Below are positions 1,220 through 46,526 of a stretch of 47,519 nucleotides of DNA, one piece after another; position 1 is the first letter of the stretch, and the number at the start of each line of letters is the position of its first letter. The position numbers and the translations under genes are program-made. The stretch covers positions 1 through 47,519 of the IMG/VR virus record IMGVR_UViG_3300025151_006999. The stretch is one strand, 5' to 3'. This DNA comes from a virus. The notes beneath the pieces are model-generated. The model saw only the letters and a program-made list of their open reading frames with translations. It was not told the DNA's origin and did not search any database.

Positions 1220-1221
1220 TT

Positions 1222-2514: not shown

Positions 2515-2536
2515 TTGTTATAAATATTAAAGTGTT

Positions 2537-3862: not shown

Positions 3863-3895
3863 ATATAACCTTTTATGTAATATAAGAGTATTTTC

Positions 3896-4408: not shown

Positions 4409-4427
4409 TTATACTTAATTATAAAAA

Positions 4428-8983: not shown

Positions 8984-8994
8984 AATTGTTTATT

Positions 8995-9002
8995 TATAAA
9001 TA
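8995..9002 (-). promoter_or_regulatory. TATTTATA octamer upstream of the 59-residue gene
   Basis: The coding strand reads TATTTATAAATAAAC, with the octamer 11 bases before the ATG of the small tail-operon gene. The sequence is nearly palindromic, so the T4 late-promoter core TATAAATA can be read on both strands here. Confidence 0.22.
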
Positions 9003-9007
9003 GTTTA

Positions 9008-14613: not shown

Positions 14614-14952
14614 TTATTTAGGAATGAAAAGGCCTTTTTCTGGATCAATAGTTCCGTCTCCGTATTTATCTCTAAGGTTTTTAGTCAAGTGAGTATTCTG
14701 ATTGTCTGTCTCTTTGATAAAACCTTCTAATGCCTTTGTTTTCTTTATAATATATAGTTCTAATTTACCTATTTCTTTAGAGATTTTTTGGTCGTATTCA
14801 TTTAGAATAAGGTTAAAAGAGCTTTTTATTTGCCTTGCTTTCAAATTACCTATTTCTACGTGTTCAGCTTCTATTAGCTCTAATCTTCTTTCAATTACTT
14901 TTACGTTATCAAATTCTTGTTTAGTAAGCTTTTTTGATCTCTTTACTGCCAT
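14614..14952 (-). CDS. Small coiled-coil hypothetical protein
   Basis: A 112-residue, highly charged protein predicted to be one long coiled coil over residues ~8-90 (heptad-like Leu/Ile spacing with Lys and Glu), ending in a conserved-looking YGDGTIDPEKGLFIP tail. I have seen this kind of tail on small phage proteins of unknown function. Its ATG lies inside the end of the last cassette gene (10-base overlap), so it is translated with the cassette, but it resembles phage housekeeping rather than glycan genes. It may be a tail assembly or scaffolding factor. Confidence 0.6.
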   Translation of the reverse strand: MAVKRSKKLTKQEFDNVKVIERRLELIEAEHVEIGNLKARQIKSSFNLILNEYDQKISKEIGKLELYIIKKTKALEGFIKETDNQNTHLTKNLRDKYGDGTIDPEKGLFIPK

Positions 14953-15593
14953 TGTATATTGTTTGGTAATTTTAAGTTAATATCCTGTATTACTGGTACT
15001 TGATTTTGTTCTAATAGTCTAGTCCATAATAAACTTCCTTCATAATCTTCTCCCATCATAGATGAAAATAGTTTATCTATTTTAATTATTTCTCTATGAA
15101 ATTTTTTAAATGGTTTAGAAAAAACTTTTTTTAATGCTTTAGGGTACGTTGTAAACATTCTTTCATCGAAAGTTTTATAATGAATAGTGCCATAAATACA
15201 GTCGTTAAATTCAAAATCTTCTAACAGTGGTCTTGATTGTAATTTAGCTTTTCTAAAGTATTCTATTAGGTCTGGGTTATATTCTATTATATCAGTATCT
15301 AAATTAGGTTTAAATTTTATACAATGGTCGTACTTGTCAATATTTTTACATAACCTTATAGCTGCATAAGTAGAATAAAGATATGAAATTCTTTTTCTAT
15401 CAAATTTAGGTTTTTCTGTCATTACAGTAAGATTACCGCAGAATTTTTTGTACCTATTAAGCTTTTTAATCCATCTTTCATTATCATTTCCTTTCCATGT
15501 GTGTACATATACGTCAGTATCTATACTTAAGAAAGGAAGTATATTATCGTTAAGGCCATGTAGGTAGCCTGATATGAATATTGCTTTAATCAT
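14943..15593 (-). CDS. Putative glycosyltransferase-like protein (R-x-R-P-D group)
   Basis: A 216-residue member of a group with four copies in this cassette (also 16667, 27606 and 34793). They share an N-terminal Rossmann-like strand (here IKAIFISGYLHG), a VYVHTWKGN segment, and a later strand ending in a basic/acidic box; here HCIKFKPNLDTD takes the place of the R-x-R-P-D seen in the 34793 copy. The layout suggests a GT-A-like sugar transferase with the acidic residues near the metal site. It overlaps the neighbouring sulfotransferase start/stop by 4 bases. It is the last glycan gene before the structural block. Confidence 0.55.
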   Translation of the reverse strand: MIKAIFISGYLHGLNDNILPFLSIDTDVYVHTWKGNDNERWIKKLNRYKKFCGNLTVMTEKPKFDRKRISYLYSTYAAIRLCKNIDKYDHCIKFKPNLDTDIIEYNPDLIEYFRKAKLQSRPLLEDFEFNDCIYGTIHYKTFDERMFTTYPKALKKVFSKPFKKFHREIIKIDKLFSSMMGEDYEGSLLWTRLLEQNQVPVIQDINLKLPNNIQWQ

Positions 15594-16234
15594 AAATCTA
15601 ACCAGTATTTAGTTGTTTTTATTTGATTCCATACTTGCTGTTCAAATTCAATCATCTGCATATAATTTCTATGAAAAAACTTTCGCTTATACCATTTTAA
15701 ATCTCTATGTTCTTTTATAGCCATTTTAACACTATCTTCAGTTGCTATATTATAATATGGTATCTCTAGTGTAGGATCAATAAAATCCTTAAATTTAGTA
15801 GATAGTAAATTTAAATCAAAAAATTTAAAGTTACAACCTTCCCATCCTGAGCCAAAATATACTTTATTAAAAAATAATTTTATAGAAGGGTTTTGAAAAT
15901 AATTGAGCTTAGGTACATAATTTCTTTCTGGTAGCATAAGAGTGGAAATAAGTTTCGGCAAATTATCATCTGGTAAATGCTGTTTTATCTTATCCGAATA
16001 AGTTTGAAGCATACAGCTAAATGCTCTATCCCAAACCTTTCTTATTGGAATATATAGAGTATGTTCAGGATTATCATGTTTTAAAACTCTGTTTACTGAG
16101 TTACTATGAAAATCTTGAAGTTCATATTTTAACCAGCCAGGATTTCTAAAATATATTTGCTTTACAGCTTGACTACCATTTTTAGCAAGACCTAGTATTG
16201 CAAAATTATTTTTAAATATATATCTAGTGCTCAT
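15590..16234 (-). CDS. Sulfotransferase-like protein
   Basis: A 214-residue protein from the ATG at 16234 (MSTRYIFKNNFAIL). A longer TTG-initiated frame would run 30 bases deeper into the upstream gene, so I chose this ATG, which leaves an 11-base overlap. The segment AILGLAKNGSQAVKQIYF fits the 5'-phosphosulfate loop of PAPS-dependent sulfotransferases, and LYIPIRKVWDRAFSCMLQTY fits the 3'-phosphate-binding R-x-x-W-x-R-x-x-S element. It probably transfers sulfate to a sugar hydroxyl. The P-loop is divergent (KNGS rather than KTGS/T), so activity is not assured. Confidence 0.6.
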   Translation of the reverse strand: MSTRYIFKNNFAILGLAKNGSQAVKQIYFRNPGWLKYELQDFHSNSVNRVLKHDNPEHTLYIPIRKVWDRAFSCMLQTYSDKIKQHLPDDNLPKLISTLMLPERNYVPKLNYFQNPSIKLFFNKVYFGSGWEGCNFKFFDLNLLSTKFKDFIDPTLEIPYYNIATEDSVKMAIKEHRDLKWYKRKFFHRNYMQMIEFEQQVWNQIKTTKYWLDL

Positions 16235-16670
16235 AGTTAATAATATAATCGCTGCATATGCCAAGTCTGCCTTCTACTTTATCTTTTTTGTACTCAGGTA
16301 GTACTGCAATGCTTCCTTCTATATAGGTACCGGGATTAGCCCACATAACACCTTTTGATGTAAGAATAACATCATCTGTATCGTGCCAGAAATAATTAAA
16401 ATAAACTCCTCCTCTATCGATTTCTACTAACTTAGATAATGCTTCATAGTTTTTACAATGTATCCAAAGTTTTCTATAGTAACTTTTAATAAATTCAAAA
16501 GGAATTTCATATTGTGGTTCATCGTGACCAAGAACAAATTTACCGTCTTTAAACCAGAAATCTACTTCACAGTCATATCCTTTATTTATAGCTTCTACTA
16601 TATAAGAAGGTTTATTTTCTAATTTAGGATTAGGCCCGTCAATATTACCTCTATGTGAAATAAGTATCAT
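16224..16670 (-). CDS. Minimal glycerophosphodiester phosphodiesterase-like protein
   Basis: A 148-residue protein with the GDPD signature in compact form: HRGN at 6-9, the metal-binding pair E35 and D37 in CEVDFWF, and the second catalytic His in GHD (49-50). Full-length GDPD enzymes have about 250 residues in a TIM barrel, so this is either a minimal version or half a barrel. The family cleaves glycerol or other groups from phosphodiesters, so it could trim phosphodiester-linked decorations on a surface polymer. It overlaps both neighbours by 4-11 bases within the cassette. Confidence 0.65.
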   Translation of the reverse strand: MILISHRGNIDGPNPKLENKPSYIVEAINKGYDCEVDFWFKDGKFVLGHDEPQYEIPFEFIKSYYRKLWIHCKNYEALSKLVEIDRGGVYFNYFWHDTDDVILTSKGVMWANPGTYIEGSIAVLPEYKKDKVEGRLGICSDYIINYEH

Positions 16671-17461
16671 ATTTTTTTTGTTTTTTCAAAAAATCGTCTA
16701 GCTTTTAGTCCGTTATCCTGAGTAAGCATCCATCTAGGTCCAGATTCAGCTAAAATAAATTTAAACTGATTAGGAGAAGGATGTTTCAAAGACCAGCCTG
16801 CATCTGTATGTGTTCCATCAGGGTCAAATCTCATTGGCTCTCTAATTAATAAACCTTGATACTTTACAGGCCATATAGATCTATTATAAATTTTTTGATA
16901 GTTTAAATACTCTGCTTGCATTATATGCATCATTATTTTTTCTTCTGGAAATATTTTATTTATGAATACATCTTCAAACATACTACTAAATTTATTAAAA
17001 GTATTCTGACTGCCGTAAAAAAACATATCGTCAGTCCATAAATGACCATTATGAAGAGAAGTTCCTGCATAAGAGTAAATAATATTTTCTCCAACCTGCT
17101 TATCTTTATATAGGTCTACAAAATAATCTAAAACTTCTCTAAACATATAGAAGTCTGATCTAGTCTGTATTACTGCATTATAATCCTCTTTTATAAGTTC
17201 ATTAGCTTTATGTAAAGTATAAGAATAATGAGGTTGGTGACGTCTAGCTGGGTGTTTCTTTAAATCATAAGGGCAATCTTCTTCTTTTAATCTTATAAAT
17301 TTCTTAACCCAACTATATTTAGAGTAATCTATATCGTCTTCCCATGTAGCTAAATAAAAATCAAAACTTACATTAGAATATAAATTATTCCATTCAGCAA
17401 ATAAACTATTTGTTAAGTCTAAATACTTACCGCTACCGTTTATAATAACTGCAATTTTCAT
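16667..17461 (-). CDS. Putative glycosyltransferase-like protein (R-x-R-P-D group)
   Basis: A 264-residue member of the same group as 14943, 27606 and 34793. It starts IAVIINGSGKYLDLTNSLF, then has the DFYLATWEDD segment and a YNAVIQTRSDFYM strand that corresponds to the R-x-R-P-D box. A downstream WTDDMFFYGS segment is the probable second acidic site. The group is typical of phage and bacterial surface-polysaccharide loci and is probably a sugar transferase. Its start overlaps the sulfotransferase end by one base. Confidence 0.55.
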   Translation of the reverse strand: MKIAVIINGSGKYLDLTNSLFAEWNNLYSNVSFDFYLATWEDDIDYSKYSWVKKFIRLKEEDCPYDLKKHPARRHQPHYSYTLHKANELIKEDYNAVIQTRSDFYMFREVLDYFVDLYKDKQVGENIIYSYAGTSLHNGHLWTDDMFFYGSQNTFNKFSSMFEDVFINKIFPEEKIMMHIMQAEYLNYQKIYNRSIWPVKYQGLLIREPMRFDPDGTHTDAGWSLKHPSPNQFKFILAESGPRWMLTQDNGLKARRFFEKTKKI

Positions 17462-18078
17462 TAAAATGTATATTTAAAATAATCTAAATCTTTTTCCCAT
17501 AGTTTAGATAAAGCTTTTACTTGTTCTGTAGTGTAGTAATCTCTATAGTTTTTTACTTTATATTCGGTTCTATTAGTATTTTTTAATTTAGGTAAATTTA
17601 AAGTAAGAAAAAAAGTATTGAGTTTATGTATATCTTCTAGTTTAAAGTATCCATCTATATACATATTATCATCTTTATCGTATATAAAGCTAAACATACT
17701 CTTTTTCATAGGCGGTAAATGCCAAGGTTTATCTGGGTCTAGGTAATGATCTACAAAATCCGCCCAATTATAAGTTTTGTGAATTCTATTAACGTTTGCC
17801 CATCCATATTGCCAGTTATGGTAGTGATAGCTCACTAGTATGTCAAAAGGATTTCTGACTACGGTTAAGTGAGTATCGTTTTCATAGTATGACTCAGAGT
17901 TATCTATTTTTGACTTAAATCCTTGTCCAGTCCAGTATTTCTTTTTATCTTCTTCGTTTTTAAAAGGATTAAATAGGTAGCCATGGTCTAATACTTTTAT
18001 AAAAGGATTATCATTTTCTTTTAAAAGAGTCTTAATACTTGTAGTTCCTGTCTTCTGTATGGCTGTAAATACAATCAC
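17461..18078 (-). CDS. Sulfotransferase
   Basis: A 205-residue PAPS-dependent sulfotransferase. I choose the GTG at 18078, which overlaps the stop of the upstream gene as GTGA; the longer frame from 18129 would overlap it by 55 bases and place 17 unrelated residues before the first strand. From this start the protein reads MIVFTAIQKTGTTSIKTLL, the canonical 5'-phosphosulfate loop at the N-terminus. The 3'-phosphate site is TVVRNPFDILVSYHYH. A C-terminal aromatic-rich region would bind the acceptor. It probably sulfates a glycan made by the cassette. Confidence 0.78.
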   Translation of the reverse strand: MIVFTAIQKTGTTSIKTLLKENDNPFIKVLDHGYLFNPFKNEEDKKKYWTGQGFKSKIDNSESYYENDTHLTVVRNPFDILVSYHYHNWQYGWANVNRIHKTYNWADFVDHYLDPDKPWHLPPMKKSMFSFIYDKDDNMYIDGYFKLEDIHKLNTFFLTLNLPKLKNTNRTEYKVKNYRDYYTTEQVKALSKLWEKDLDYFKYTF

Positions 18079-19439
18079 GAATAATTTTCTAAATAATACT
18101 TTAAATCTTCCGGTGTTCCTAGACCCCACATCTTATCGATATTGAAAGTTCTAATTGCTTTTTTATCTTTTATAGCTTCGTTAAAAACTGGGCAAACATA
18201 AAACTCATTATTAACTCTAATATCTTCTTCTATCATTTGTTCTGCATACTTAACAAAATCAGAACCTTTTTTCCAGTAATAATAACCTACTGTAGCAATA
18301 TCTGAGATAGGATTCTTTTCAGCAACTTCTGTAACTAATCCTGCTTTATTAATTTTAGCAAATGACCATTTAGGATGAGTAGCTTTAAAAGTAACTATAC
18401 CGCCATCTGCATCTGTTTCATTCATTTTATATAGAAACTCATTTGAGTCCCATTCTACAAATTGATCAGAGTTAGCAAAGAATAAAGGGTTGTCGTTATC
18501 TATAAACTTCTTAGCTAACAGAGCAGTACAAGCTGCTCCTTCTGTTACACTGTTTACTTCTACAATTTTACATTTAGGAGTAATTAAGTTAAGTAGAGTA
18601 TCTAAATTATATTTTTCTCTATGCTGTTTTTGTACTACATAAATAAAATTAGCTTTAATATTTAAATTTTCAGTAACAACTTGAATCATAGGCTTGCCTT
18701 TAACGTCAATTAAAGGTTTAGGAAACGTATATCCTGCTTGCTCAAATCTACTTCCAGCTCCTGCCATAGGAATAAGTACATTGAGATTTTCATCTCTCCA
18801 TGCCGGTGTAGATTGTTTTTCTCCCATATCTATTTGCTCAATTTTACTTAAAATTTTATCTACAACTACTTCTGATGGGTTTTTAACTCTATAGATATAA
18901 GACTTACTTCTCGATGCAGCAAGTAATCCATAAGGTGAATCTTCTACTATAAGAGTTTCTTCTGGTAGAACACTCATTTTAGATATTGCAGTCCAATATA
19001 TTTCTGGGTGTGGTTTAGGGTTAGTAACATCTTCTCCTGAAAGGATAAAGTCCATATACTCAGCTAAGCCTAGTTTAGCTAAAACTGTTATAGCAGTCTT
19101 ACGTATAGAGTTAGTACATAATCCCATTTTAAATCCTGCTTTAGATAGTTCTGCCATAATCGACTGTAGTCTAGTATCAGGTTCTATATCTCTTAACATC
19201 TCAAAGGTAATTAACTGCTTCTTTTTCCATATTTCATTATGTTTTTCTACAGGTAATCCTTTCTTTTCAGATAATACTTTAAGTTTTTGTTTAGTAGTTA
19301 AACCATCATATACAGCAAGGTGTTCAGCCCAATCAAAAGCATATTCTCCTAATGCTTTATTTAATGCTTTAAAGTGTAAGTGCTTTGTTTCTATTAAAAC
19401 TCCGTCTAAATCGAATATAATTAATTTTATAGTGCTCAT
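18075..19439 (-). CDS. Bifunctional HAD phosphatase / sugar nucleotidyltransferase
   Basis: A 454-residue fusion. Residues ~1-205 are a beta-phosphoglucomutase-type HAD domain: FDLDGVLIE with nucleophile Asp10 and Asp12, the TNS motif at 109-111, KPHP at 142-145, and VEDSPYG at 165-171. Residues ~218-454 are a nucleotidyltransferase: PMAGAGSRF at 224-232, KPLIDVKGKPMI at 241-252, and a FANSDQFVEWDS metal site. Together they could act on a sugar phosphate and form the nucleotide-activated sugar. The second half is a paralogue of the stand-alone enzyme at 28222, which is next to a separate HAD gene, so the same pair exists both fused and split in this cassette. Confidence 0.85.
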   Translation of the reverse strand: MSTIKLIIFDLDGVLIETKHLHFKALNKALGEYAFDWAEHLAVYDGLTTKQKLKVLSEKKGLPVEKHNEIWKKKQLITFEMLRDIEPDTRLQSIMAELSKAGFKMGLCTNSIRKTAITVLAKLGLAEYMDFILSGEDVTNPKPHPEIYWTAISKMSVLPEETLIVEDSPYGLLAASRSKSYIYRVKNPSEVVVDKILSKIEQIDMGEKQSTPAWRDENLNVLIPMAGAGSRFEQAGYTFPKPLIDVKGKPMIQVVTENLNIKANFIYVVQKQHREKYNLDTLLNLITPKCKIVEVNSVTEGAACTALLAKKFIDNDNPLFFANSDQFVEWDSNEFLYKMNETDADGGIVTFKATHPKWSFAKINKAGLVTEVAEKNPISDIATVGYYYWKKGSDFVKYAEQMIEEDIRVNNEFYVCPVFNEAIKDKKAIRTFNIDKMWGLGTPEDLKYYLENYS

Positions 19440-20212
19440 AATTTTTTTATATAGTCATACAAATACTCAGCCCATTCTATATGACTCACATCTGTAGGAT
19501 GTGCTGTTCTAAAGTATTTACCTTCGTCCCAGTCGTCTAATCCATGTTTTACGCATATGTATTCTTTAAAGTGTGCTTTTGATGGGTCATTAATAATCCA
19601 TTTCGATTTGTCTATAAATTTAGACATATACTGTTGGTCAAAATCTTCAAACTTATCAAATGCATTAAAAAATAAGTAATCTATATTATTTAATTTAAGG
19701 TAATTTTGTAAATTAAAGATATAAAATAGAAATTCATTTTGTATATAGTTTAATTTATCATATAAATCATTTGCTAATGTATGATTATCCGGTCTTTGTT
19801 GTTGTACTGTGAGTTCATTATTTTCAGTTATGTAGATAGGTATTCTTATCATCGAAGTCCATCCAACTATTACTAAGTCAGGTTTTTTACCTTGATTTTT
19901 CAACCATTCGCATGATTGAATAGTAGTTTGGCAAATGGCATGATTATCATCTCCTAATCTACCCGCATTCCAGGTTTCGCTCCCCAGTAATCTTCCTAGT
20001 TTTTTAGGCCAAACCTGCGAGTCATAGAATTTATATAGTACTCTAGTATTATTGTGTACTAGAGGGTTTCCAAATGGATCTAGGTACTTATAAAGATTAC
20101 CAAAGTGAGGAACAATATCATACCAGTCCATAGACTTCTTAGCATGCCAGTTTGCTTGTTGTGCTGGGCTATCTCCTTGTGTCCAACTATCTCCGTTAGT
20201 TAATAATATCAT
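19436..20212 (-). CDS. SGNH/GDSL hydrolase-like protein (GDSW type)
   Basis: A 258-residue SGNH-family protein. The nucleophile block GDSWTQGD has Ser9, and the C-terminal block HPTDVSH gives Asp241 and His244 with the family's D-x-x-H spacing. A Gly block (NAGRLGDDNH) and a LVIVGWTS strand follow the fold. Members hydrolyse or transfer acyl groups; in glycan loci they are usually O-acetyl esterases or acetyltransferases. It resembles the 38125 protein most. It overlaps both neighbours (17 and 4 bases). Substrate unknown. Confidence 0.75.
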   Translation of the reverse strand: MILLTNGDSWTQGDSPAQQANWHAKKSMDWYDIVPHFGNLYKYLDPFGNPLVHNNTRVLYKFYDSQVWPKKLGRLLGSETWNAGRLGDDNHAICQTTIQSCEWLKNQGKKPDLVIVGWTSMIRIPIYITENNELTVQQQRPDNHTLANDLYDKLNYIQNEFLFYIFNLQNYLKLNNIDYLFFNAFDKFEDFDQQYMSKFIDKSKWIINDPSKAHFKEYICVKHGLDDWDEGKYFRTAHPTDVSHIEWAEYLYDYIKKL

Positions 20213-20996
20213 AATGATTAATAAAATTTTTTAAGCCAGTTCCTCCTTTTACATGTACTAAGAAAGGAATTTCATTAAAGCTATGTATATTGTTTTTTAT
20301 TCTGTTTAATCCAGGGTAATTTTTTCTTAAAGTATCTCTATAATATCTACCTAATCCTACTTCGTAATAGCCCGGAAGATGAAGAAATTTTAATTTTTTT
20401 TCTCTACAAATTTTAGTTGCATCGTGATTATTATCTCCTAACTCATAGCCTATATCTATATTATGTTTACTATAAAAATTATTTCTACATAAAAACCAGT
20501 AACAATCAGCAAAAAAAGATCCTTCAAGTTCAGCTACTTTTTTCTTAGGTTTTGCATCAATTGTTATATACTGTAAGTTATCCTCTTCAAGCAAACCAAT
20601 TGCATCAGTAAGTAATTTATCCATAGGATAGTAATTATCTAAATACCATATATCATTATGCTGTATAATAAAATAATCTCCTGTTGCTGCTTCAATTCCT
20701 AAGTTATATGCCATTGCTGTAACTTCAGCTTGATTTCTTTTTTCTAAATTAGTTATAACTTTGAGTCCGTCTAAAACTTTTACTCTGTCATCATCAGTAT
20801 TTAATTTAAAGTCACCGGAATTGTCGATTAGTACAATTTCAACGTTAAGGTCTACTGATAAAATTTGATCTATTAATTTATTAGTATGAGAAAGAATAGC
20901 TTGATCGAGATCTGGTTTAATCTCAGGCCAGTCTCTTTTATCAAACACTGTCATTGGCCAGGTTGAACTATAACATATTATAAAACTTATTCTCAT
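20196..20996 (-). CDS. Glycosyltransferase family 2-like
   Basis: A 266-residue GT-A-type transferase. It opens with MRISFIICYSSTW, then VEIVLIDNSGDF, the AYNLGIEAATGDYFIIQHND stretch typical of GT2 enzymes, with HND in place of the usual DxD metal motif. Later parts contain a GYELGDNNHDATKIC acidic segment that could hold the catalytic base. It would add a sugar to a growing chain at the cytoplasmic side of the membrane or to a protein. It precedes the SGNH gene and overlaps the NeuB-like gene by 4 bases. Confidence 0.72.
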   Translation of the reverse strand: MRISFIICYSSTWPMTVFDKRDWPEIKPDLDQAILSHTNKLIDQILSVDLNVEIVLIDNSGDFKLNTDDDRVKVLDGLKVITNLEKRNQAEVTAMAYNLGIEAATGDYFIIQHNDIWYLDNYYPMDKLLTDAIGLLEEDNLQYITIDAKPKKKVAELEGSFFADCYWFLCRNNFYSKHNIDIGYELGDNNHDATKICREKKLKFLHLPGYYEVGLGRYYRDTLRKNYPGLNRIKNNIHSFNEIPFLVHVKGGTGLKNFINHYDIIN

Positions 20997-21826
20997 TTAA
21001 ATCTACCTCTATAATAATCGTGGTTAAATACTTGTTGATCGTTAAATTTATTTAATTCTCTATACTGATCTTCTTTATTCATATTACTGAATCGTTTGAG
21101 TTCAGACATCATTTTTGGTGTAACTGATACTTTACCGTCTCTTGTATCATCTATATTTAAAATAGTAAAGTGTCTTTCTAATACATCTATTCCTTGAAAA
21201 ATAGCTAATTTAGACGATAGTAAACTATCTTCATGAGGATTACTATGATCACTTAAGCCTACATTCTGCACTCCTAATTCGTTTCTAAAATACTCTATAT
21301 TCTGTAAATTAAGTTTATCTAATGGTGTAGGGTATACACAAGTACATTGAAGCATATAATATTCAATACCCATTGCATTTAAATTTTTTACAGTTTTTTT
21401 TATTTCTTCTAATGTTAAACTTGAAGTAGAAAAGAATAATCTCTTAAATTTAAAGTTTTTTAATTTTTTACCATAATCAAAAGCAGGTATAGAGTATCCA
21501 GATATTTTTAAATTATCGTATCCTAGTTCGTTAAATCTAGGAGCATGTTGCGGTACAAATATAGTAGTCATAGACTCTACTCCATACTCCATACATTTTA
21601 ATATAAAAAGCTCTTCATCTTCTTTACTCAGTTCTAATCCTTTAAGTCTACTATACTCAGGTTCGTACGGTCTATGCTTTTCATAGTTCTCTCTAAAAGT
21701 AAGATTACTAGCATGTATAGTTTGTATTTTTACTATATCACTACATACAGCAGCAGTCTTTATCATAGAGTCTAAAGTATCTAAATTACCATTATGATTT
21801 TGACAGAGTTCAGCTATAATTTTCAT
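20993..21826 (-). CDS. NeuB-like nonulosonic acid synthase
   Basis: A 277-residue enzyme of the sialic acid synthase family, which condenses phosphoenolpyruvate with an N-acyl-hexosamine to give a nine-carbon acid. The barrel motifs are present: IAELCQNHNGN with Glu6, VKIQTI, QCTCVYPTPLDKLNL, GLSDHS and ERHFT (the two metal-binding His). The usual C-terminal SAF/antifreeze-like lid, which takes NeuB to about 345 residues, is missing, so a lidless variant is likely. The cassette also encodes a NeuA-like CMP transferase (30053), supporting a nonulosonic acid pathway; no NeuC-type epimerase was recognised. Confidence 0.8.
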   Translation of the reverse strand: MKIIAELCQNHNGNLDTLDSMIKTAAVCSDIVKIQTIHASNLTFRENYEKHRPYEPEYSRLKGLELSKEDEELFILKCMEYGVESMTTIFVPQHAPRFNELGYDNLKISGYSIPAFDYGKKLKNFKFKRLFFSTSSLTLEEIKKTVKNLNAMGIEYYMLQCTCVYPTPLDKLNLQNIEYFRNELGVQNVGLSDHSNPHEDSLLSSKLAIFQGIDVLERHFTILNIDDTRDGKVSVTPKMMSELKRFSNMNKEDQYRELNKFNDQQVFNHDYYRGRFK

Positions 21827-38964: not shown

Positions 38965-39677
38965 TCGTTGTCGTATTTAATAGGGTGATTACCATTACCC
39001 GAATCATCATGAATCTTGTAATAAGTAAACTTTTTAAAATTACTGAGAAATACTGCTTTAGAGCTTCTATTAGCTAATACTTTATCAGTAAATCTTTCAT
39101 AATCGTCAAAAAATAGTTGCTGTATAAAAGGTAAAGTATGTTCTATCTCAACGTACAGTTTATCTATTTCACCAATAAGCTCATGCTTCCAGTCTGGTGC
39201 TAGTCTATTAGCACATCCCACCCAAAGGTAGCTATTTGAGTAATCTACTAATTTAAAGTATTTAGCTTCTATAGATTTATCATCAACTGTAAAAATAAAT
39301 GTGTCATGGGTTTGTGTAAACTTAATATCAAACCAAGTATCTTTTACTTTTTTAGGGTCAATGTCTATATCTAATATTCTCTGTTCTTTTTCGTTTTCTT
39401 GCCAATATTCAAAACTAAACCTATATACCCAAGGTTCATCCCCAATATGATTTCTAATCATTTTGAAGAATATTCCAATATGCATACCATTTTTACAAAT
39501 AATACCGGTAGAAAGAAATCCTATCTCAGGCATTTCTTTAGTCATTTTTTCTATATCAGGTTTAAATCTACACAATATAGTACAGTCCCCCATATATACT
39601 TGATTAATATTATTTTTGATTAACCCACTGTTATTCCCGGTATTAAAAAGATAAGAAAGTGTTCCGTCGAATATCAT
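38952..39677 (-). CDS. LamG/concanavalin A-like domain protein
   Basis: A 241-residue beta-rich protein consistent with a LamG/concanavalin A jelly roll: GDCTILCRFKPD as an early strand, DTWFDIKFTQTHDTFIFTVD in the middle, and a HELIGEIDKLYVE strand near the end, followed by a C-terminal helix-rich tail and a DDSGNGNHP segment often found after LamG folds. Such domains bind carbohydrate. The two GT7-like enzymes at 41095 and 42501 carry related domains. It may be a stand-alone glycan-binding partner. Overlaps the radical SAM gene by 4 bases. Confidence 0.58.
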   Translation of the reverse strand: MIFDGTLSYLFNTGNNSGLIKNNINQVYMGDCTILCRFKPDIEKMTKEMPEIGFLSTGIICKNGMHIGIFFKMIRNHIGDEPWVYRFSFEYWQENEKEQRILDIDIDPKKVKDTWFDIKFTQTHDTFIFTVDDKSIEAKYFKLVDYSNSYLWVGCANRLAPDWKHELIGEIDKLYVEIEHTLPFIQQLFFDDYERFTDKVLANRSSKAVFLSNFKKFTYYKIHDDSGNGNHPIKYDNEWVT

Positions 39678-41098
39678 AATTTTATATCTGCTTTATCTAA
39701 ACATCTTCTGTAGAAATCCTCAAGTTCAGGAAAAGTTTTTATAAAGTCTGTTCCTCTTCTCTCATCGTGAGCTTTGAAGTATCTACCAAAATTTGCTCTA
39801 TTTCTTTCTAATTGCTTTGGTTCTTTGTATGCATGCATCCAGTCATATATTCTTTTTACTTTTTGAATTTCGATGTCTGAATACCCTACATGTTTATGAT
39901 CGAATTTTGGTATACCTAAGTAGTTAGCATATTGAGCTGTTCTAAATACTTCTTCTGCCCATTCCATAGGTAGTACCTGCACTGTTTGATGTCTAGGATG
40001 TCTAAGGTATGAAGAGTCTAAAAATACTGCGGAAGTCCAATATCTATCACTCGAAGTATAAGTTTTTTTAAGGTCATATATTCCTTGTATAAGTTGATAG
40101 TAACTAGGAATAGATAGTGCATTAAAGGTAGACATTACAGTTAAATTAATTCTCGGACATTTCGTTAATATTTTATGCATATTAGCCCAAAACCTATTAA
40201 ACTCTAATCCATTTCTAATATATTCAGCTTGTGGTCCCCATGCATCTACTGAAGTAAAAATTATAAACTCATTTACCCTACCTTCATCTTCTATTCTTTG
40301 TATTTTTTCTATAAATTTATCTACTAAATTATCAGGAATACCTAAGTTAGAATTTATAGCTAAATTTAGTTTCTTATTAGGGTTAGGTTCTTCAATAATA
40401 AAGTCTAGTATTTTCCATGTATCCTTTGATAGTAATGGTTCTCCTCCGGTAATTCTAAAGGTATGTAAGTCTCTATAAAGATCAGGCCACCATTTCCAAA
40501 ACGCTTCTACATAAGGATTATGCATAGTGTGGTGAATAGGCATTTTACTATCTCTTTTTAATCCTTCTAAATCGTTGAATCTATCTGTGGTAGGATATGG
40601 ACCGTACTTGTTTGCCTCTTCTACCCATTTAGAAGAAAAAGAAGGTCCGCAATAAGAACATTTAAAATTACATACGTTAGAAAATGCTACTTCTACATAC
40701 TTGGGATTATAGTCTCCTCTCCAACCTAAATCTAATACTTCTTGTAGATAAGGTTTAGACCAGCTTTCATTAGATTTAAATACTCTGTCTGAAAATCTAT
40801 CTGAGTTATCTTCTACGTTCCAACAGTAATCACACTCAGAAGGTCTTTCATTTTCTAGCATTTGCTTTCTCTTCTGCTTTTTAAATCTTGTATTATGTAG
40901 TGCAGACGGGTTTCTTTTTATTTCAGCTACTGGTATTTTATGAGTGTTAGGATGGTGACATGAGTGTGTCTGTCCCATCTGTAAATGTATAGTAGTTTGA
41001 GTCCATTTAGCTAAACAGAAACCTTTTCCTATGCTATCTAATTGTTTCTTAGTATTTACGTAATGTGGATTATCGAATGATAATGATGCTGCACTCAT
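39674..41098 (-). CDS. Twitch/SPASM-type radical SAM protein
   Basis: A 474-residue radical SAM protein. The cluster ligands are Cys143, Cys147 and Cys150 in FSNVCNFKCSYCG; RITGGEPLLSKDTWKIL is the SAM-binding motif. An N-terminal segment with Cys28, Cys47, Cys89 and Cys92 (GFCLAKW, SCHHP, ECDYCW) precedes the core, as in radical SAM proteins with a twitch-type auxiliary region. It differs from the second radical SAM enzyme at 26690 in having this region before rather than after the core. The substrate is unknown; phage copies occur beside glycan genes. Confidence 0.82.
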   Translation of the reverse strand: MSAASLSFDNPHYVNTKKQLDSIGKGFCLAKWTQTTIHLQMGQTHSCHHPNTHKIPVAEIKRNPSALHNTRFKKQKRKQMLENERPSECDYCWNVEDNSDRFSDRVFKSNESWSKPYLQEVLDLGWRGDYNPKYVEVAFSNVCNFKCSYCGPSFSSKWVEEANKYGPYPTTDRFNDLEGLKRDSKMPIHHTMHNPYVEAFWKWWPDLYRDLHTFRITGGEPLLSKDTWKILDFIIEEPNPNKKLNLAINSNLGIPDNLVDKFIEKIQRIEDEGRVNEFIIFTSVDAWGPQAEYIRNGLEFNRFWANMHKILTKCPRINLTVMSTFNALSIPSYYQLIQGIYDLKKTYTSSDRYWTSAVFLDSSYLRHPRHQTVQVLPMEWAEEVFRTAQYANYLGIPKFDHKHVGYSDIEIQKVKRIYDWMHAYKEPKQLERNRANFGRYFKAHDERRGTDFIKTFPELEDFYRRCLDKADIKL

Positions 41099-42501
41099 AG
41101 TTTTATATTAATCATTTTAGCCCAAGGGGTAAGTTTTTCTTCTCCTACAAGTTCATACTTAACTTGCTTAAGTCCATCTTCTTTATAATTAACCTTACCT
41201 TGCTGCATTTGTAAGACATATCTTCGCTCGTTTCTAGCAGTTGTTTCTCCTTTAGCCCATTTGCCGTTTACTAATCCTTCGTCTTTATGGGGTAAGCATC
41301 TGAATTTACCGTCTACTCTATGAGGTACAATAGAATTAGGTATCTTAAAGCTATCTTTTTTAAACTGAATATCTTTAGCGTTAAAAGCAGATTTAGGATC
41401 ATTAAAATCTAAATCTAAAACTAAATCATCTTTAGGAATATCTTTATGTAGATTCATAACTTCTTCTGGAGTTAAACATCTTTTCCAAGCAAATGTTTTT
41501 GCTATATCTCCTTTAAAATAACCATGGTACTTATCCGGAAAAGTAGGTGTATGTCCTAAATAAATATCCGATATTCCATAATTCTTTAATGTACCAATCC
41601 AAGTATGAGGAGAAGGGCTACCAAACCCTGCTTTACTGTCTACTTCAGAACCGTTTAAGTAAAAATGAGAGGTTTTATTCTCAGCATCAAAAGTAGCTGT
41701 TATCCAGCTCCATTGATTATCATACCTCTTAATCCACATATAATTGTGTTGTTGAAAATTATTCCAATAAGTTAAAGATAACGCTCTAGAATTATTAAAA
41801 GACAAGCCATAATCATACCCAGGTAATCTAAATATAGGATATTCTACATATCTATTTTTTTTATCTCCTATTAAAAAAATCTTATTTTTATCTAACTGGT
41901 GATAACATCTAACTAAAGCCGATATTGAGTGAGATCTAGAAGTAAGTCCTCTATATTTTCTTTCGAAAGGTATTTTTATAACAGAGCTATCTCCATTAAA
42001 CGAAGCATATCTTTGTGTTCGTTCTCCTTTGTCTAAGTAAGTATCGTTCGTCATACCTTCCATATGACATCTCCAGAATAAATCATCATCTTCCATTCCC
42101 CAATCCCAGTATTCATTAGAATATCCGTTAGTAGCTTCTGCTTGTTTTTTTGTAAACAGTACTGCTCCGCCAAAATATTCGTGGTACTTTAATCCATAGT
42201 CCATTTGAGATATTTTAGTTGCTATATGTCTAGGGTTATCTTCTGGGTAAGTATAATCAGCACCTTCTTCAGGTATCATATCAATATCATGCCACACTAT
42301 ATAGTCGCATCCTTCTTCAAATGCATGTTTAGCTGCTATATTTTTTGTAGCTCCTCTATTAAAAAGTTTATCATCTACTTGATGACAAAAATACATTTGA
42401 AAGTCTATATTTCTATCTTTAAGAAACTTTCCTACTTTAGGAACAAATTCATTAAGATGTAACTCTCTATCTCTATATGGTACACAAACTCCTAATTTCA
42501 T
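41095..42501 (-). CDS. GT7-like galactosyltransferase fused to a LamG-type domain
   Basis: A 468-residue protein. Residues ~1-150 follow the beta-1,4-galactosyltransferase (GT7) pattern: VCVPYRDR, FNRG at 47-50, HDIDM at 71-75 (the D-x-D metal site), YFGG at 109-112 and the acceptor-site motif YWDWGMEDDD at 131-140. Residues ~200-375 are a LamG/concanavalin A-like module with NQWSWITATFDAENKTSHFY and ISDIYLGHTPTF strands and a DDLVLDLDFNDP end. GT7 enzymes are best known from animals. It overlaps by one base a paralogue of the same architecture at 42501. Confidence 0.8.
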   Translation of the reverse strand: MKLGVCVPYRDRELHLNEFVPKVGKFLKDRNIDFQMYFCHQVDDKLFNRGATKNIAAKHAFEEGCDYIVWHDIDMIPEEGADYTYPEDNPRHIATKISQMDYGLKYHEYFGGAVLFTKKQAEATNGYSNEYWDWGMEDDDLFWRCHMEGMTNDTYLDKGERTQRYASFNGDSSVIKIPFERKYRGLTSRSHSISALVRCYHQLDKNKIFLIGDKKNRYVEYPIFRLPGYDYGLSFNNSRALSLTYWNNFQQHNYMWIKRYDNQWSWITATFDAENKTSHFYLNGSEVDSKAGFGSPSPHTWIGTLKNYGISDIYLGHTPTFPDKYHGYFKGDIAKTFAWKRCLTPEEVMNLHKDIPKDDLVLDLDFNDPKSAFNAKDIQFKKDSFKIPNSIVPHRVDGKFRCLPHKDEGLVNGKWAKGETTARNERRYVLQMQQGKVNYKEDGLKQVKYELVGEEKLTPWAKMINIKL

Positions 42502-43886
42502 TATATTCCTACGTTTAAATAATGTACTTTACCTTTTCTACTTTTACCATGAAGTGTAAATTCTAAGCTAGAAAGACCGTCTTGAACTTTGTCATACCTA
42601 CCATTAAGTACCTCATTAGTATACCTTAATTGGTTCCATCTAGTAAGATCGTCTTTCCATCTACCATTTAAAAATCCATTTGATTCATGATTAAGTGTTT
42701 CATATCTGCTTTTTCTTCTTTTAGGTTTATGAAAAACTTTGACGTTTTTACTACCTAATAAGGTAATATGAGCATTAAAAATATCACCAGGATTATCATT
42801 CGAAGATAAGTCTATTAATCTATAGTTATGAATAAATCTGGAGTCATAATAAGTTTTTAAGAATAAGCTAGATTTATATTCTCCGTAATTAGAACTACAT
42901 CCAATATCAGGTTTAGAACATAAACTCTTAATTTCTTCTATTTTTAATGTCCTTTCGAATATAAGAAATTTTTCTATACTTCCATTGAAATAATGTTCTT
43001 TCTTTGGACTACATCCTAAAAATATATCTTTTTTGTTACCATAGTTTTTTAAAGTACTAGTAAGTTTTTGTCTACCAACTTCTATACCGTCAATATAAAA
43101 AATTAAAGTTCTTTCTTTAGCAATATAGTTAATAAATAAAAAGTTTTGTGATCCTTCAAATATTGAAGAGTAAAGTTGATAAAATTTGTTATTAGTATCA
43201 AAAAATTGAACTGAAAACCGTTTAAAAGAACTGTAGAATATTCTAAAATCAAATCCTTCTACGCTAAAAATAGTAAAGGTATCAGAATTTTTTGTATGAT
43301 CTAAAGTTATTTTATCTAATGTTAACTGTATTCCAAATGAAAAATCTCTTGTATACTTTATAATATTAGGAGAAGTAATATATGCGTTAGTACCATTAAG
43401 TTTTATTGTCCCCCTATTTTGATTATCAAATTTTTTAGATGTTCTATCTAGTTGTATGTTATTTTTTATACATCTATACATTAAGTCGTCATCTTCAAAT
43501 CCCCATCCCCAGTAAAGATTAGAGAATCCATCAATTTTATCAAAATCTTCTACCGGAAATAAGGTTATACCTCCGAAGTATGTCTCGAAAGGTAGATCTT
43601 GAGTTGCTAAATGAATAGGAAATGAAGAAAAAGAATAATCGACATTGATAGGAAGCATATCAACGTCATGAAATACAACATAATCACATCTTAATCTTTT
43701 AGCTTCTTGAAAACCAATATTACATAGTGTACCTCTGTTAAATGCAGATGCATTATCTTGTTGTACTATTATAATTTCGTAATTATAATTTCTATTGTCT
43801 AAATATTTTGGTAATCTGTCTAAAAATCTCTTAAGGTGACTATGTCTATTTCTATAGGGAACAATAATACCTAACTTTCTACTCAC
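42501..43886 (-). CDS. GT7-like galactosyltransferase fused to a LamG-type domain (paralogue)
   Basis: A 461-residue protein with the same architecture as its neighbour: IIVPYRNRHSHL, FNRG at 49-52, HDVDM at 73-77, YFGG at 103-106 and YWGWGFEDDD at 125-134, then a LamG-like module (about 150-330, with RTLIFYIDGIEVGRQKL and KKDIFLGCSP strands) and a C-terminal tail that shares the NGxWKDD/RWNxLRY pattern. The two copies are diverged, so the duplication is old or the donors differed. Both would add a sugar to a glycan recognised by the LamG module. Confidence 0.8.
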   Translation of the reverse strand: MSRKLGIIVPYRNRHSHLKRFLDRLPKYLDNRNYNYEIIIVQQDNASAFNRGTLCNIGFQEAKRLRCDYVVFHDVDMLPINVDYSFSSFPIHLATQDLPFETYFGGITLFPVEDFDKIDGFSNLYWGWGFEDDDLMYRCIKNNIQLDRTSKKFDNQNRGTIKLNGTNAYITSPNIIKYTRDFSFGIQLTLDKITLDHTKNSDTFTIFSVEGFDFRIFYSSFKRFSVQFFDTNNKFYQLYSSIFEGSQNFLFINYIAKERTLIFYIDGIEVGRQKLTSTLKNYGNKKDIFLGCSPKKEHYFNGSIEKFLIFERTLKIEEIKSLCSKPDIGCSSNYGEYKSSLFLKTYYDSRFIHNYRLIDLSSNDNPGDIFNAHITLLGSKNVKVFHKPKRRKSRYETLNHESNGFLNGRWKDDLTRWNQLRYTNEVLNGRYDKVQDGLSSLEFTLHGKSRKGKVHYLNVGI

Positions 43887-44079
43887 TATCTTCTCCGACT
43901 ATACCTTTATGAAACTCTGATAAATACCATTGAGCTCTTTCATCCCAAGCTCCTTTATCAATTTCTTCAAACCATAAGGTAAGAGAGTCTACAGCAGATG
44001 CAAGTTTTTCGAGAGCTTTTATTTTTCTTTCTTCTAATAAAAGTCTTTCTTGTTCGTAATTGATTTCTGTTTTTGCCAT
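43879..44079 (-). CDS. Small conserved hypothetical protein (66 aa)
   Basis: A 66-residue charged protein: an N-terminal helix with ERLLLEERKIKALEKLA and a C-terminal AWDERAQWYLSEFH segment. I recall similar short proteins from marine phages, without a function. It begins 2 bases after the upstream glycosyltransferase ends and overlaps the GT7-like gene by 8 bases. It may be a structural or regulatory peptide rather than a glycan enzyme. Confidence 0.55.
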   Translation of the reverse strand: MAKTEINYEQERLLLEERKIKALEKLASAVDSLTLWFEEIDKGAWDERAQWYLSEFHKGIVGEDSE

Positions 44080-44081
44080 TT

Positions 44082-44918
44082 TTAAATATTTGTAATTATA
44101 TCTGTTAACTTATCCCAGTGAGGGTAATCTTTATAATCAATATAAGAATTATTTTTCAGCTTTTCAACTAAAAACTTCTTATTTTTTATGTTTATTTTAT
44201 AGTCACTTTTTATTATTTCCCTATGCATTTTATTATATTCTTTCCAGTATGAATAATCTTCTCTAACTGTTGATACATCCATTAATCTTTCTATTACTGT
44301 TGAGTCCCATTTAAAGTGATGAACTTGTACAAATACATCTTGTATTGGTAATCGTCTTCTATGCATTTTACCCCAGCTGTTTCCTTTATTAGTAACAGCA
44401 TAATGTTGACCTGGTGTTACATCTACGTGTCCTTTCATTAAAGTTACTTTATTTGGACATGCTCCAGACATTGGATATCTAAAAAAACCTGCATTAGGAA
44501 AAGCTTCATGTAAATTAGTGTCTATATTTACCTTAGGAAAAGAACCTTCAGGTCCTATACGGTCTAAAAAACCACCGGTAACAAAATGATACCCGGCTCT
44601 CTCACAATAATTAATAATATAGTCTAAAGTCTCTGGGTATACTTGTAATTCATCGTCATCTGATACTATCCACCAGTCATTTGGACGGGTTCTTTTTACT
44701 TGATTATATAGCTCTGTAACTTTTTCCCAATGAAACTTAGGTTCAGTTACTACTTTATAAGGAGTAATACCTAATTCTTCTATTTCTTCTAATATTTTAT
44801 CGTCCTCTGATTGTCTATAGACCACTACATAAGACTTATCTACTTTATCTTCATAGTGTTTTAACATATGAGGTAAAATATGAGTATTGCTACCGACTAC
44901 TGTAACTAAATTAGGCAT
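44082..44918 (-). CDS. Glycosyltransferase (GT2-like)
   Basis: A 278-residue GT-A-type transferase. It opens LVTVVGSNTHILPHMLKHYE, followed by SYVVVYRQSEDD, and carries DDDE at 87-90 (WWIVSDDDELQVYP), the metal-binding motif. A later VHHFKWDSTVIERL segment has the H-x-K-W element of the glyco_tranf_2_4 type. It probably adds one sugar to an extracellular or virion glycan. Overlaps the methyltransferase end by 8 bases. Confidence 0.72.
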   Translation of the reverse strand: MPNLVTVVGSNTHILPHMLKHYEDKVDKSYVVVYRQSEDDKILEEIEELGITPYKVVTEPKFHWEKVTELYNQVKRTRPNDWWIVSDDDELQVYPETLDYIINYCERAGYHFVTGGFLDRIGPEGSFPKVNIDTNLHEAFPNAGFFRYPMSGACPNKVTLMKGHVDVTPGQHYAVTNKGNSWGKMHRRRLPIQDVFVQVHHFKWDSTVIERLMDVSTVREDYSYWKEYNKMHREIIKSDYKINIKNKKFLVEKLKNNSYIDYKDYPHWDKLTDIITNI

Positions 44919-45672
44919 GTTGTAAAAGTGTTAATCCTGTTGATGCTGGTTTCGAAGGGTGAATTCCTGTATTAAAAAAATTAAATTGTTTCCATTCTGA
45001 TTCTATCTCTTTTATAAACTTTGGAGGTCCGTCGAAAAATTCATAATATTCTTTTTCATCTTCAGTAATAATTAATTCCTTTTGGTATCTTTCATCTGTA
45101 TCATGAATAGAAATCATACCATTTGGTTTAACTAATTTAGAATATAATTCAAAATCACGTTTTACATCCTCGTATGAATGACCAGCATCTATATGCAAGA
45201 AGTCTATTTTTATATCTTTTTTTACAAAATAATTATAATAAGCATTTTCAGTTGTATCTTTTATAAATCTAGGAGCAAATTGATATCTAAAGAAACTATC
45301 TTCGTTTGAATAGTCTATTTTACCTCCTATTCCATTTGCAGCGTCTACTAAATAAGTTTCTCCTATATCTCCATGATTATAGTCATTATTTCCTTCAAAT
45401 ATACCTTGATCATGTAAGTCTAGTCTAGCTTGAGTCATTATCCTAGGAATAAAGCCAGCACCTGAACCTAAACACACACAGGTTTTATATCTCATTAACT
45501 GAATAATAGAGTAAATAAGAAGTCCATCTCCTAAATCATAGTCAGATGCTCCGTGAGTCCATCTATATTTGACAGGTTTAAAGGTTTTTATTTCTTTTCC
45601 TTTAATATCTTTTTCTATGACAGGATTATTGGTTAAAAACTGTCTAATGTATTCTTTATCTATAACTCCCAT
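44911..45672 (-). CDS. Class I SAM-dependent methyltransferase
   Basis: A 253-residue methyltransferase of the Methyltransf_24 type. The SAM-binding loop is KTCVCLGSGAGFIPRIM and the acidic strand DFLHIDAGHSYEDVKRDFEL leads into KPNGMISIHDTD, a strong family signature. It probably caps or decorates a sugar hydroxyl, a common chain-ending step in surface glycans. It overlaps its neighbours by 1 and 8 bases, in the part of the cassette that is transcribed first. Confidence 0.8.
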   Translation of the reverse strand: MGVIDKEYIRQFLTNNPVIEKDIKGKEIKTFKPVKYRWTHGASDYDLGDGLLIYSIIQLMRYKTCVCLGSGAGFIPRIMTQARLDLHDQGIFEGNNDYNHGDIGETYLVDAANGIGGKIDYSNEDSFFRYQFAPRFIKDTTENAYYNYFVKKDIKIDFLHIDAGHSYEDVKRDFELYSKLVKPNGMISIHDTDERYQKELIITEDEKEYYEFFDGPPKFIKEIESEWKQFNFFNTGIHPSKPASTGLTLLQHA

Positions 45673-46526
45673 TAAGCTTTGTCTATACTTGTTAAATCTA
45701 AGTTAGGAATATTTATGCAATTAAGCAAATGTTTTACCTCTCTATCGTAACTTTGATCAGCTTTATTATGTACTATCCATCTTTTAAGAGGTCCGTAATG
45801 TTTTACAAATACCTCTGAATCGTAGATAGACCAAATACCTCTATCATGTTCTTCGCCCCATTCCCATGCATTGCAATCCCAATAAGTTCCTATGAGAGAA
45901 GTAAAGTCGATATTTTTCATCTTAAACATATGTCGAAGAAGTAATTGTTCAGCAAAAATTAAATACTGAGAATTAGGAACTTTCATTGCTGTAAACTCTT
46001 CCATTAGTTTAAGACTTGCAAAAGCATATTCTTTAATAAATGAAGGATCGGGGAGTTGTAAAAAACTAACATTTACTGATTCTGTTTGCCATCTTGGTTT
46101 GTAAGTTAACTGTCTTACATATTTGTCAGTATAGCTTGGATAATATCCTTTTCCTTGTTCAATATTATGAACATAGAATTTATTAGGATCTAAAAATTTC
46201 TTAATTGGAGCAAATATATGTAGGTCGTTATCTACTATTATACAAGGTTCTGTTTGCTGAGATAATACTTCTAACTTTGCTGCTGCCCAAAATATTTTTC
46301 TTTCAATTTTATATTTAGGCTTATATACCTCAATACTATTCCATAGATGTAGTACCTTAATAGTTTCTAGTGTCTCTCTAGTTAGTTCATCACAGTATAG
46401 TACACAGTTATCGTCTGGGTAGAATCTCTTCCACAGACTAACAGACGCTATAAGTAGTAAGATATAAAGTCTACTGTAAAAAGACTTTTCTCCTGTAACA
46501 TTATCTAAAACCCAAATTATTTTCAA
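45672..46526 (-). CDS. Putative glycosyltransferase with DND metal motif
   Basis: A 284-residue protein with the layout of GT-A enzymes of the GT8/GT32 kind. A Lys/aromatic N-terminal region leads to EPCIIVDNDLHIFAPIKKFL, where DND at 99-101 is the likely D-x-D site; later EQLLLRHMF and VFVKHYGPLKRW provide the typical donor-site His. It starts 17 bases after the structural protein gene ends and is the first gene of the cassette in transcription order. Donor and acceptor are unknown. Confidence 0.6.
   Translation of the reverse strand: MKIIWVLDNVTGEKSFYSRLYILLLIASVSLWKRFYPDDNCVLYCDELTRETLETIKVLHLWNSIEVYKPKYKIERKIFWAAAKLEVLSQQTEPCIIVDNDLHIFAPIKKFLDPNKFYVHNIEQGKGYYPSYTDKYVRQLTYKPRWQTESVNVSFLQLPDPSFIKEYAFASLKLMEEFTAMKVPNSQYLIFAEQLLLRHMFKMKNIDFTSLIGTYWDCNAWEWGEEHDRGIWSIYDSEVFVKHYGPLKRWIVHNKADQSYDREVKHLLNCINIPNLDLTSIDKA

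Follow-up and report, generated by a model that had tools for sequence, protein, structure and literature searches.

What would a phage build with 37 consecutive genes, many of them of carbohydrate-active type, set among its virion genes, and onto what would the product be placed? This question is raised by IMG/VR virus record IMGVR_UViG_3300025151_006999 (positions 1 to 47,519), a fragment of 47,519 bases, hereafter the window, which is late-region DNA of a T4-superfamily myovirus, given as one strand. Positions 14943–46526 are wholly occupied by 37 minus-strand open reading frames (ORFs; g50 to g14, 66–489 amino acids), here called the cassette. Our preferred reading, held at a probability of about 0.48, is that the cassette would act as a late, cytosolic assembly line for a sulfated nonulosonate-type glycan, with a virion protein such as the adjacent tail fibre as acceptor. 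Judged by comparison with relatives, it is a vertically kept clade trait, inherited as one unit of about 30–37 genes over about 30 kb.

The initial annotation had described a one-strand block of 37 genes with no gap above 2 bases, and the ORF map bore this out: of 36 internal junctions, 34 overlap by 1–56 nt, one abuts and one leaves a 2-nt gap. The overlaps of 41–56 nt may reflect over-long start choices. In 5' to 3' order on the minus strand, g52, g51 and the cassette (g50–g14) are followed by g13, the sheath gene g12, the tube gene g11, a baseplate-hub-like g10, further genes and a UvsX-like g01; a tRNA scan of the window found none. Structural genes had been placed on both sides of the block, and on the sheath side this held (g12, phrog_23, E 7e-74). 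The fibre side could be seen through relatives only, in which a tail-fibre gene with an S74 domain lies directly upstream of g52: g51 and g52 matched no structural families, and the window ends inside g52, so that the S74 gene of the same phage falls outside it.

Enzyme assignments were based on E-values, folds and motifs, and the activities given are predicted ones. Sixteen of the 37 cassette proteins scored above the Pfam cut-off for sugar-nucleotide, precursor, transfer or tailoring families (g18, g19, g20, g22, g24, g26, g28, g30, g33, g34, g42, g44, g45, g46, g49 and g50). Sub-threshold matches were obtained for g21 and g48 (glycosyltransferase family 2, GT2), g35 (exostosin/RXYLT1-like) and g23 and g41 (DUF6071), and motifs only identified g27 and g36 as SGNH, g16 as GDPD-like and g31 as HAD-like. 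The description of almost every gene as of carbohydrate type was thus overstated, the remainder being sub-threshold, motif-only, fold-only or without assignment; the combination of sugar activation, precursor synthesis, transfer and tailoring was confirmed by families above the Pfam cut-offs.

Two markers of a nonulosonic-acid pathway were found, a NeuB-type synthase condensing phosphoenolpyruvate (PEP; g22) and a cytidine monophosphate (CMP)–sugar synthetase, NeuA (g33). The g22 protein matched N. meningitidis SiaC/NeuB (E 5e-15) and, at 277 amino acids, ends before the C-terminal part of the 349-amino acid meningococcal enzyme. A Pfam search of the 37 proteins recognised no hexose precursor enzymes (NeuC or equivalents), and hexose precursors for the nonulosonate may be supplied by the host. 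Among the putative transferases, g46 aligned with animal beta-1,4-galactosyltransferases in a single-sequence search (B4GALT1, E 7e-28), with the catalytic motifs present; the glycosyltransferase family 7 (GT7) motifs DxD and WGWGxEDDD are exact in g46, and g45 has WDWG for WGWG. The g40 protein, which had no family matches, was predicted to adopt a GT-B-like fold (pLDDT 86), with a structural match to trehalose-6-phosphate synthase (E 1.4e-5, probability 1.0, TM-score 0.42); the model suggests a GT-B enzyme by fold class rather than a close relative of the matched structures. PDB profile searches with g40 and with the g38 family gave nothing significant, fold searches with g51 returned weak beta-repeat matches only, and PADLOC found nothing among ten weakly assigned proteins.

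Comparison with related phages, proposed at the outset as a check, showed the locus to be neither scattered nor decayed. In eight IMG/VR contigs, 20–34 of the 37 genes recur, 20–33 of them collinear and all on one strand, over spans of 26–33 kb (19 kb in one contig read in part); 2000 gene-order shuffles gave at most 15 collinear genes, and chance is excluded by this conserved order. The eight contigs were picked for holding large parts of the locus, so that gene-presence fractions apply to cassette-bearing phages only. Core genes occurred in 8/8 contigs (g19, g22, g24, g26, g28, g30, g31 and g33) and are mostly 60–98% identical among relatives in fixed order; accessory genes (g14, g15, g17, g18, g21 and g32) come and go. 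The ratio of nonsynonymous to synonymous substitution rates (dN/dS) to the nearest orthologue stayed under 0.45 in every computable case and under 0.1 for several of the core genes, values that are rough since synonymous sites approach saturation. Where a relative extends 3 kb or more upstream of the sheath gene, the core was present in at least 28 cases and absent in at least 15; these counts, like the others of relatives given below, are lower bounds from scans of up to 80 loci. At sheath identities of at least 74%, every informative relative carries the cassette, and variable content is found mainly outside the cassette-bearing clade. The cassette was seen in uncultured IMG/VR contigs only. 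The isolate Flavobacterium phage immuto has none. Of 50,697 GenBank phage records, none matched g44, g45, g46 or g49; g22 and g28 each drew a single weak match, and g19 had matches in cyanophages.

In the relative G001 (191 kb), the capsid gene is followed by several structural genes, then by genes for a tail-fibre-like protein and a 558-amino acid S74 fibre (S74 Pfam E 8e-19), and these by g52, g51, the cassette (113024–142480), g13 and sheath. Of 23 distinct g52-bearing contigs, 21 had an S74 fibre gene no more than 6 kb upstream, mostly at the fixed g50–g52 distance of about 1.9 kb; of 50 distinct g49-bearing contigs, 34 had one; the background for all genes of the same loci was 28%, inflated since the loci centre on the cassette. 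Upstream of the immuto sheath gene are small genes and a lysozyme only, and the same S74 profile detected no S74 domain in that region. The fibre–sheath interval is a cargo site, and its cargo is fixed in the cassette clade. The g44–g49 block was found in many phages without the rest of the cassette, and moves as a module, as its siting upstream of terminase in three large relatives indicates. The content had been said to look like one pathway; the cassette does behave as one inherited unit (eight collinear contigs, purifying selection), but it consists of two nested modules, of which the g44–g49 block is separable. In the three relatives (G004, L257–L260; G011, L265–L268; G005, L269–L272), the g49–g44 block stands between large fibre-type proteins and terminase, not before the sheath; it follows an S74 protein in G004 and G011, and S74 was not detected near it in G005.

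For the timing of expression, gene starts were inspected for promoter elements. The T4 late promoter TATAAATA was not enriched near them. Its reverse complement, TATTTATA, was enriched, lying 8–48 nt upstream of many structural-gene starts. Sites were located in window intergenic DNA upstream of g12, g11, g09 and g03, in L082 and L253–L256, and upstream of the S74 fibre gene in G001 and of structural genes in relatives. In immuto, 12 of 14 copies lie 8–48 nt upstream of structural-gene starts, and 13 of 14 fall within the 4% of intergenic DNA. This element is probably a late-promoter element and, together with the late position of the cassette, fits expression alongside virion genes. A copy before g30 sits in conserved g31 codons and so does not establish an internal cassette promoter.

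From the observed gene content, order, conservation, selection and position we infer the following enzymatic steps, glycan chemistry and acceptor. Host sugar phosphates and PEP would be converted into unusual acidic sugars by the NeuB-type synthase g22 with the dehydrogenase g24, the aminotransferase g26 and the radical SAM enzyme g28. Donors would be activated by the HAD/nucleotidyltransferase enzymes g19, g30 and g31 and the NeuA-like cytidylyltransferase g33; the chain would be built by the GT7–LamG proteins g45 and g46, the GT-B protein g40 and GT2-like and related transferases, and decorated by the sulfotransferases g34 and g18, SGNH-like enzymes, the methyltransferase g49 and the radical SAM enzyme g44. 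Expression would occur together with the late virion genes. As acceptor, a virion protein would be most likely, above all the upstream S74 tail fibre, or else g51 or g52.

Membrane components bear on whether such a glycan would be placed on the virion or on the host surface. Kyte–Doolittle analysis predicted no membrane segments in any of the 37 cassette proteins of the window, none of 1855 homologous ORFs had three or more, and the cassettes of six relatives contained no polytopic protein; 14 of 23 cellular NeuB loci (12–17 kb each) do contain one. A complete surface-polysaccharide locus of the Wzx/Wzy or ATP-binding cassette (ABC) type, with membrane initiator, flippase/polymerase or exporter, was not found in the cassettes examined. 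The lack of predicted membrane segments makes a self-sufficient surface-polysaccharide locus less likely and points to an acceptor in the cytosol. Together, fibre adjacency and the absence of membrane components favour the virion as the putative target, and decoration of the virion (fibre) is ranked first, with remodelling of the host surface second. Several observations weigh against this ranking. Two cyanophage clusters that were checked also lack polytopic proteins, and peripheral transferases feeding a host lipid-linked glycan would equally be without membrane segments. About ten cassette proteins (including g14, g17, g25, g29, g32, g38, g39, g43 and g47) have no functional match. One relative without the cassette (L072) has the S74 fibre, followed by a short, different gene set up to the sheath; an exclusive link between S74 fibre and cassette was rejected on this account, and fibre adjacency may mark a cargo site. 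N-x-S/T sequons in g51 showed no enrichment beyond composition across orthologues and a marginal one in the window copy, and the sequon argument for glycosylation was dropped.

Remodelling of the surface polysaccharide of infected cells (O-antigen, capsule or lipopolysaccharide, LPS), for example blocking superinfection or hiding receptors, is the strongest competitor but seems less likely. Fibre and cassette would then be neighbours since both are under host-surface selection. The literature reads the P-SSM2 LPS genes (PMC2984593) and the pelagimyophage host-recognition clusters (PMC7029224) in this way, and NeuB relatives occur in marine bacterial and archaeal genomes, as HAD/nucleotidyltransferase pairs do in bacterial ones. 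In the cassettes examined, however, initiating transferases, flippases, polymerases, ligases and other membrane proteins are all absent, and one core gene set persists from phage to phage where host surfaces vary. The late structural siting of the locus also speaks against this reading; exclusion of superinfection usually acts early. Production of a small molecule, secreted or intracellular, such as an amino-sugar or peptide-type secondary metabolite, would account for the pair of radical SAM enzymes, the aminotransferase, the dehydrogenase and the many proteins without assignment. It appears improbable, because many transferase-type proteins, together with sulfotransferases and NeuB/NeuA-like activation, typically go with polymer glycans, and no nonribosomal peptide synthetase, polyketide synthase, precursor peptide or exporter was recognised in the cassette.

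Supply of nucleotide-linked sugars for hypermodification of phage DNA can be given still less weight. Glycosyltransferases are established in phage DNA glucosylation (PMC12619734), but the late structural position, the GT7, NeuB, NeuA, sulfotransferase and SGNH types, which indicate polysaccharide or glycoprotein chemistry, and a Pfam search of the cassette showing no nucleotide hydroxymethylase or DNA-modification gene all oppose it. Neutral filler DNA for headful packaging, raised as a possibility for cyanophage LPS clusters (PMC3037559), would be in keeping with a size that differs among relatives and with the lack of a cassette in immuto; collinearity, dN/dS below 0.45 and conserved catalytic motifs already contradict it here, leaving it almost no probability.

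The cassette is not unprecedented in kind, being preceded by P-SSM2, which carries 24 LPS genes (PMC2984593), by the LPS gene clusters of S-SSM7 and S-SM2 (PMC3037559) and by the pelagimyophage host-recognition cluster (HRC; mean 44.6 kb), which combines tail fibres, glycosyltransferases and radical SAM genes (PMC7029224). It shares with the HRC, also known from cyanomyophages, its nature as a large structural-region block in T4-like marine phages that is associated with these three gene types, its late structural siting (G001; window sheath at 12780–14504) and, in relatives, its tail-fibre adjacency. The HRC, however, is hypervariable and non-syntenic and lies between VrlC and gp14 (PMC7029224), whereas the cassette has a fibre-to-sheath site and an order and core conserved in eight contigs, and no cultured phage matches its g44, g45, g46 or g49. 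A g15–g18 hypervariable region is known in cyanomyoviruses (PMC2984593); the likeness to it drawn in the initial annotation was correct for position, but within the clade the locus is not hyperplastic (core mostly 60–98% identical, fixed order). The same annotation had placed the locus far beyond the one or two glycosyltransferases of T4, and a large late-region glycan cassette was indeed supported. The P-SSM2, S-SSM7 and S-SM2 LPS clusters likewise bring tens of sugar-biosynthesis genes into a T4-like phage, but lie near hli03 or phoH and tRNAs rather than between fibre and sheath, and the g22 NeuB and GT7–LamG proteins had no match in any cyanophage record searched. Glycosyltransferase clusters of the cyanophages S-CAM9, S-PRM1 and B23 share the HAD–nucleotidyltransferase fusion (55–56% identity; g19 is 56% identical to the S-CAM9 protein) and a GDPD-like protein (40–46%), but are about 10 kb long, near tRNA, hli and photosynthesis genes, and lack most other cassette genes. 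The closest cultured relative, immuto (MW353175), has the same tail gene order (sheath 66%, tube 80%) but no cassette.

Mycobacteriophage virions are glycosylated by a phage-encoded route, as Freeman et al. (2023) is cited in PMC12619734. The outcome proposed here is similar, namely phage-encoded glycans on structural proteins. Only a few glycosyltransferases are reportedly involved in mycobacteriophages, compared with up to 37 cassette genes that include sugar synthesis, activation and sulfation. New features are the size with conserved order, the combination of NeuB/NeuA with GT7–LamG proteins, sulfotransferases and six SGNH-like proteins, and inheritance as a clade trait. If the pathway is as proposed, self-encoded glycan chemistry of this range would otherwise be known chiefly from giant viruses of eukaryotes.

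The carriers are a lineage of uncultured aquatic T4-type phages, and their host is probably a member of the Bacteroidota, to judge from immuto, a Flavobacterium phage, and from a single BACON-domain protein encoded by G004; as a first guess, the hosts may be marine Flavobacteriia. In its widest form our reading is more tentative: a widespread uncultured T4-type lineage, probably infecting Bacteroidota, might encode a near-complete pathway for a sulfated nonulosonate glycan coating tail fibres or the virion. Recent capture of a host locus is unlikely, given that cellular NeuB relatives are at most 39% identical to g22 over its full length, 296 genomes of one phylum contained no g28 match, and the parts of g19 correspond to adjacent cellular genes at 37–54% identity. 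In some bacterial genomes (L281–L285) the two halves of g19 are separate neighbouring genes, HAD and nucleotidyltransferase, next to a further nucleotidyltransferase gene and in one case also a GDPD-like one, possibly the ancestral arrangement of g19, g30 and g16. A virion glycan would mean bacterial viruses carrying most of their own glycan pathway, which would affect how they adsorb, how far they are shielded from grazers or proteases, and what becomes of the particles in water; a host target would place the cassette among the largest phage-encoded host-surface reprogramming systems described. With either target, the conserved order offers a defined pathway open to enzyme-by-enzyme reconstitution, and cassette-less immuto is a natural comparison.

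Table 1. Genes of the cassette and its flanks, in minus-strand order (aa, amino acids; contig counts refer to the eight compared).
Gene	Coordinates	Strand	Assignment	Evidence or remark
g52	47010..47519	-	Conserved 164–183 aa protein, cut by window end	Follows S74 tail-fibre gene directly in relatives
g51	46544..47008	-	154 aa, Ser/Thr-rich beta protein, InlB-repeat-like; possible virion protein	PF18998 E 0.095, sub-threshold
g50	45672..46526	-	DUF6734, first cassette gene	Above Pfam cut-off
g49	44911..45672	-	SAM methyltransferase (Methyltransf_24)	Above Pfam cut-off; 7/8 contigs
g48	44082..44918	-	GT2-like glycosyltransferase	Sub-threshold: 26.9 bits vs cut-off 27.5
g47	43879..44079	-	Conserved 66 aa protein	Homologues in relatives
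g46	42501..43886	-	GT7 (beta-1,4-galactosyltransferase-like) + LamG lectin-like domain	Pfam; HDVDMLP, WGWGFEDDD; B4GALT1 E 7e-28
g45	41095..42501	-	Second GT7+LamG protein	Pfam; HDIDMIP, WDWGMEDDD
g44	39674..41098	-	Twitch-domain radical SAM enzyme	NF033640, E 9e-107; CxxxCxxC 113/113
g43	38952..39677	-	Conserved protein	Conservation in relatives
g42	38125..38964	-	DUF6071/SGNH-like	Above Pfam cut-off; GDSWTAG
g41	37344..38165	-	SGNH-like paralogue	DUF6071 sub-threshold
g40	35975..37354	-	Predicted GT-B fold glycosyltransferase	Structure prediction, pLDDT 86
g39	35563..36030	-	Conserved protein	Conservation across contigs
g38	34793..35566	-	Family common to g29 and g17; phrog_13607	Sequence family
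g37	33872..34792	-	Glycosyltransferase-like by inspection only	No Pfam match
g36	33024..33875	-	SGNH-like by motif	GCSYTEG in 13/13 orthologues
g35	32177..33037	-	Exostosin/RXYLT1-like	Sub-threshold
g34	30721..32190	-	Sulfotransferase (Sulfotransfer_2) fused to g32-like domain	Above Pfam cut-off
g33	30053..30724	-	Cytidylyltransferase, NeuA-like	CTP_transf_3 E 2e-12; IxARxxSxR 18/19; 8/8 contigs
g32	29227..30060	-	Domain repeated in relatives	Sequence comparison
g31	28947..29243	-	Small HAD-like phosphatase candidate	Motif; 70–98% identity, 8/8 contigs
g30	28222..28947	-	Nucleotidyltransferase, kin of g19 C-terminal domain	Above Pfam cut-off; 8/8 contigs
g29	27606..28229	-	g38-family protein	Sequence family
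g28	26690..27613	-	Radical SAM/SPASM core enzyme	Pfam; 76–84% identity, 8/8 contigs
g27	25803..26693	-	SGNH-like by motif	GCSHTQG in 22/22 orthologues
g26	24830..25825	-	Class I/II aminotransferase	Above Pfam cut-off; 8/8 contigs
g25	23421..24830	-	Conserved protein	8/8 contigs
g24	22607..23431	-	D-2-hydroxyacid dehydrogenase	Above Pfam cut-off; 8/8 contigs
g23	21810..22610	-	SGNH-like	DUF6071 sub-threshold
g22	20993..21826	-	NeuB-family synthase, 277 aa	Pfam; NHNG, YPT, SDH[ST] in 31/31 orthologues; 8/8 contigs
g21	20196..20996	-	GT2-like	Sub-threshold: 21.6 bits vs cut-off 23.3
g20	19436..20212	-	DUF6071/SGNH-like	Above Pfam cut-off
g19	18075..19439	-	Beta-PGM-type HAD phosphatase + nucleotidyltransferase fusion	Pfam; 72–87% identity, 8/8 contigs
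g18	17461..18129	-	Sulfotransferase, accessory	Above Pfam cut-off; 1/8 contigs
g17	16667..17461	-	g38-family protein, accessory	Sequence family
g16	16224..16670	-	GDPD-like by motif	HRG, EVD in 44/44 orthologues; no Pfam match
g15	15590..16264	-	Sulfotransferase-like by inspection only, accessory	No Pfam support
g14	14943..15593	-	Last cassette gene, conserved	Conservation
g13	14614..14952	-	112 aa protein	Relatives' g13 matches immuto 91 aa protein just upstream of sheath
g12	12780..14504	-	Tail sheath (gp18-like)	phrog_23; 66% to Flavobacterium phage immuto

Some further features of individual genes were noted. The sulfotransferase g34 (30721–32190) carries a domain homologous to the stand-alone g32 (29227–30060), and the g32-type domain recurs in relatives, at times in more than one copy per cassette. 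In L072 the place of the cassette is taken by an 8-kb alternative set (36–9500), which encodes a radical SAM protein, a methyltransferase, a protein with DUF401 and one that weakly matches outer-membrane barrels. Several g44-like radical SAM paralogues stand in a row in L170, L175, L176, L162 and L244, in most of these loci beside the GT7 block. Tandem g38-family genes were found in L127 (15000–20141, six matching places) and L179, which suggests local duplication.

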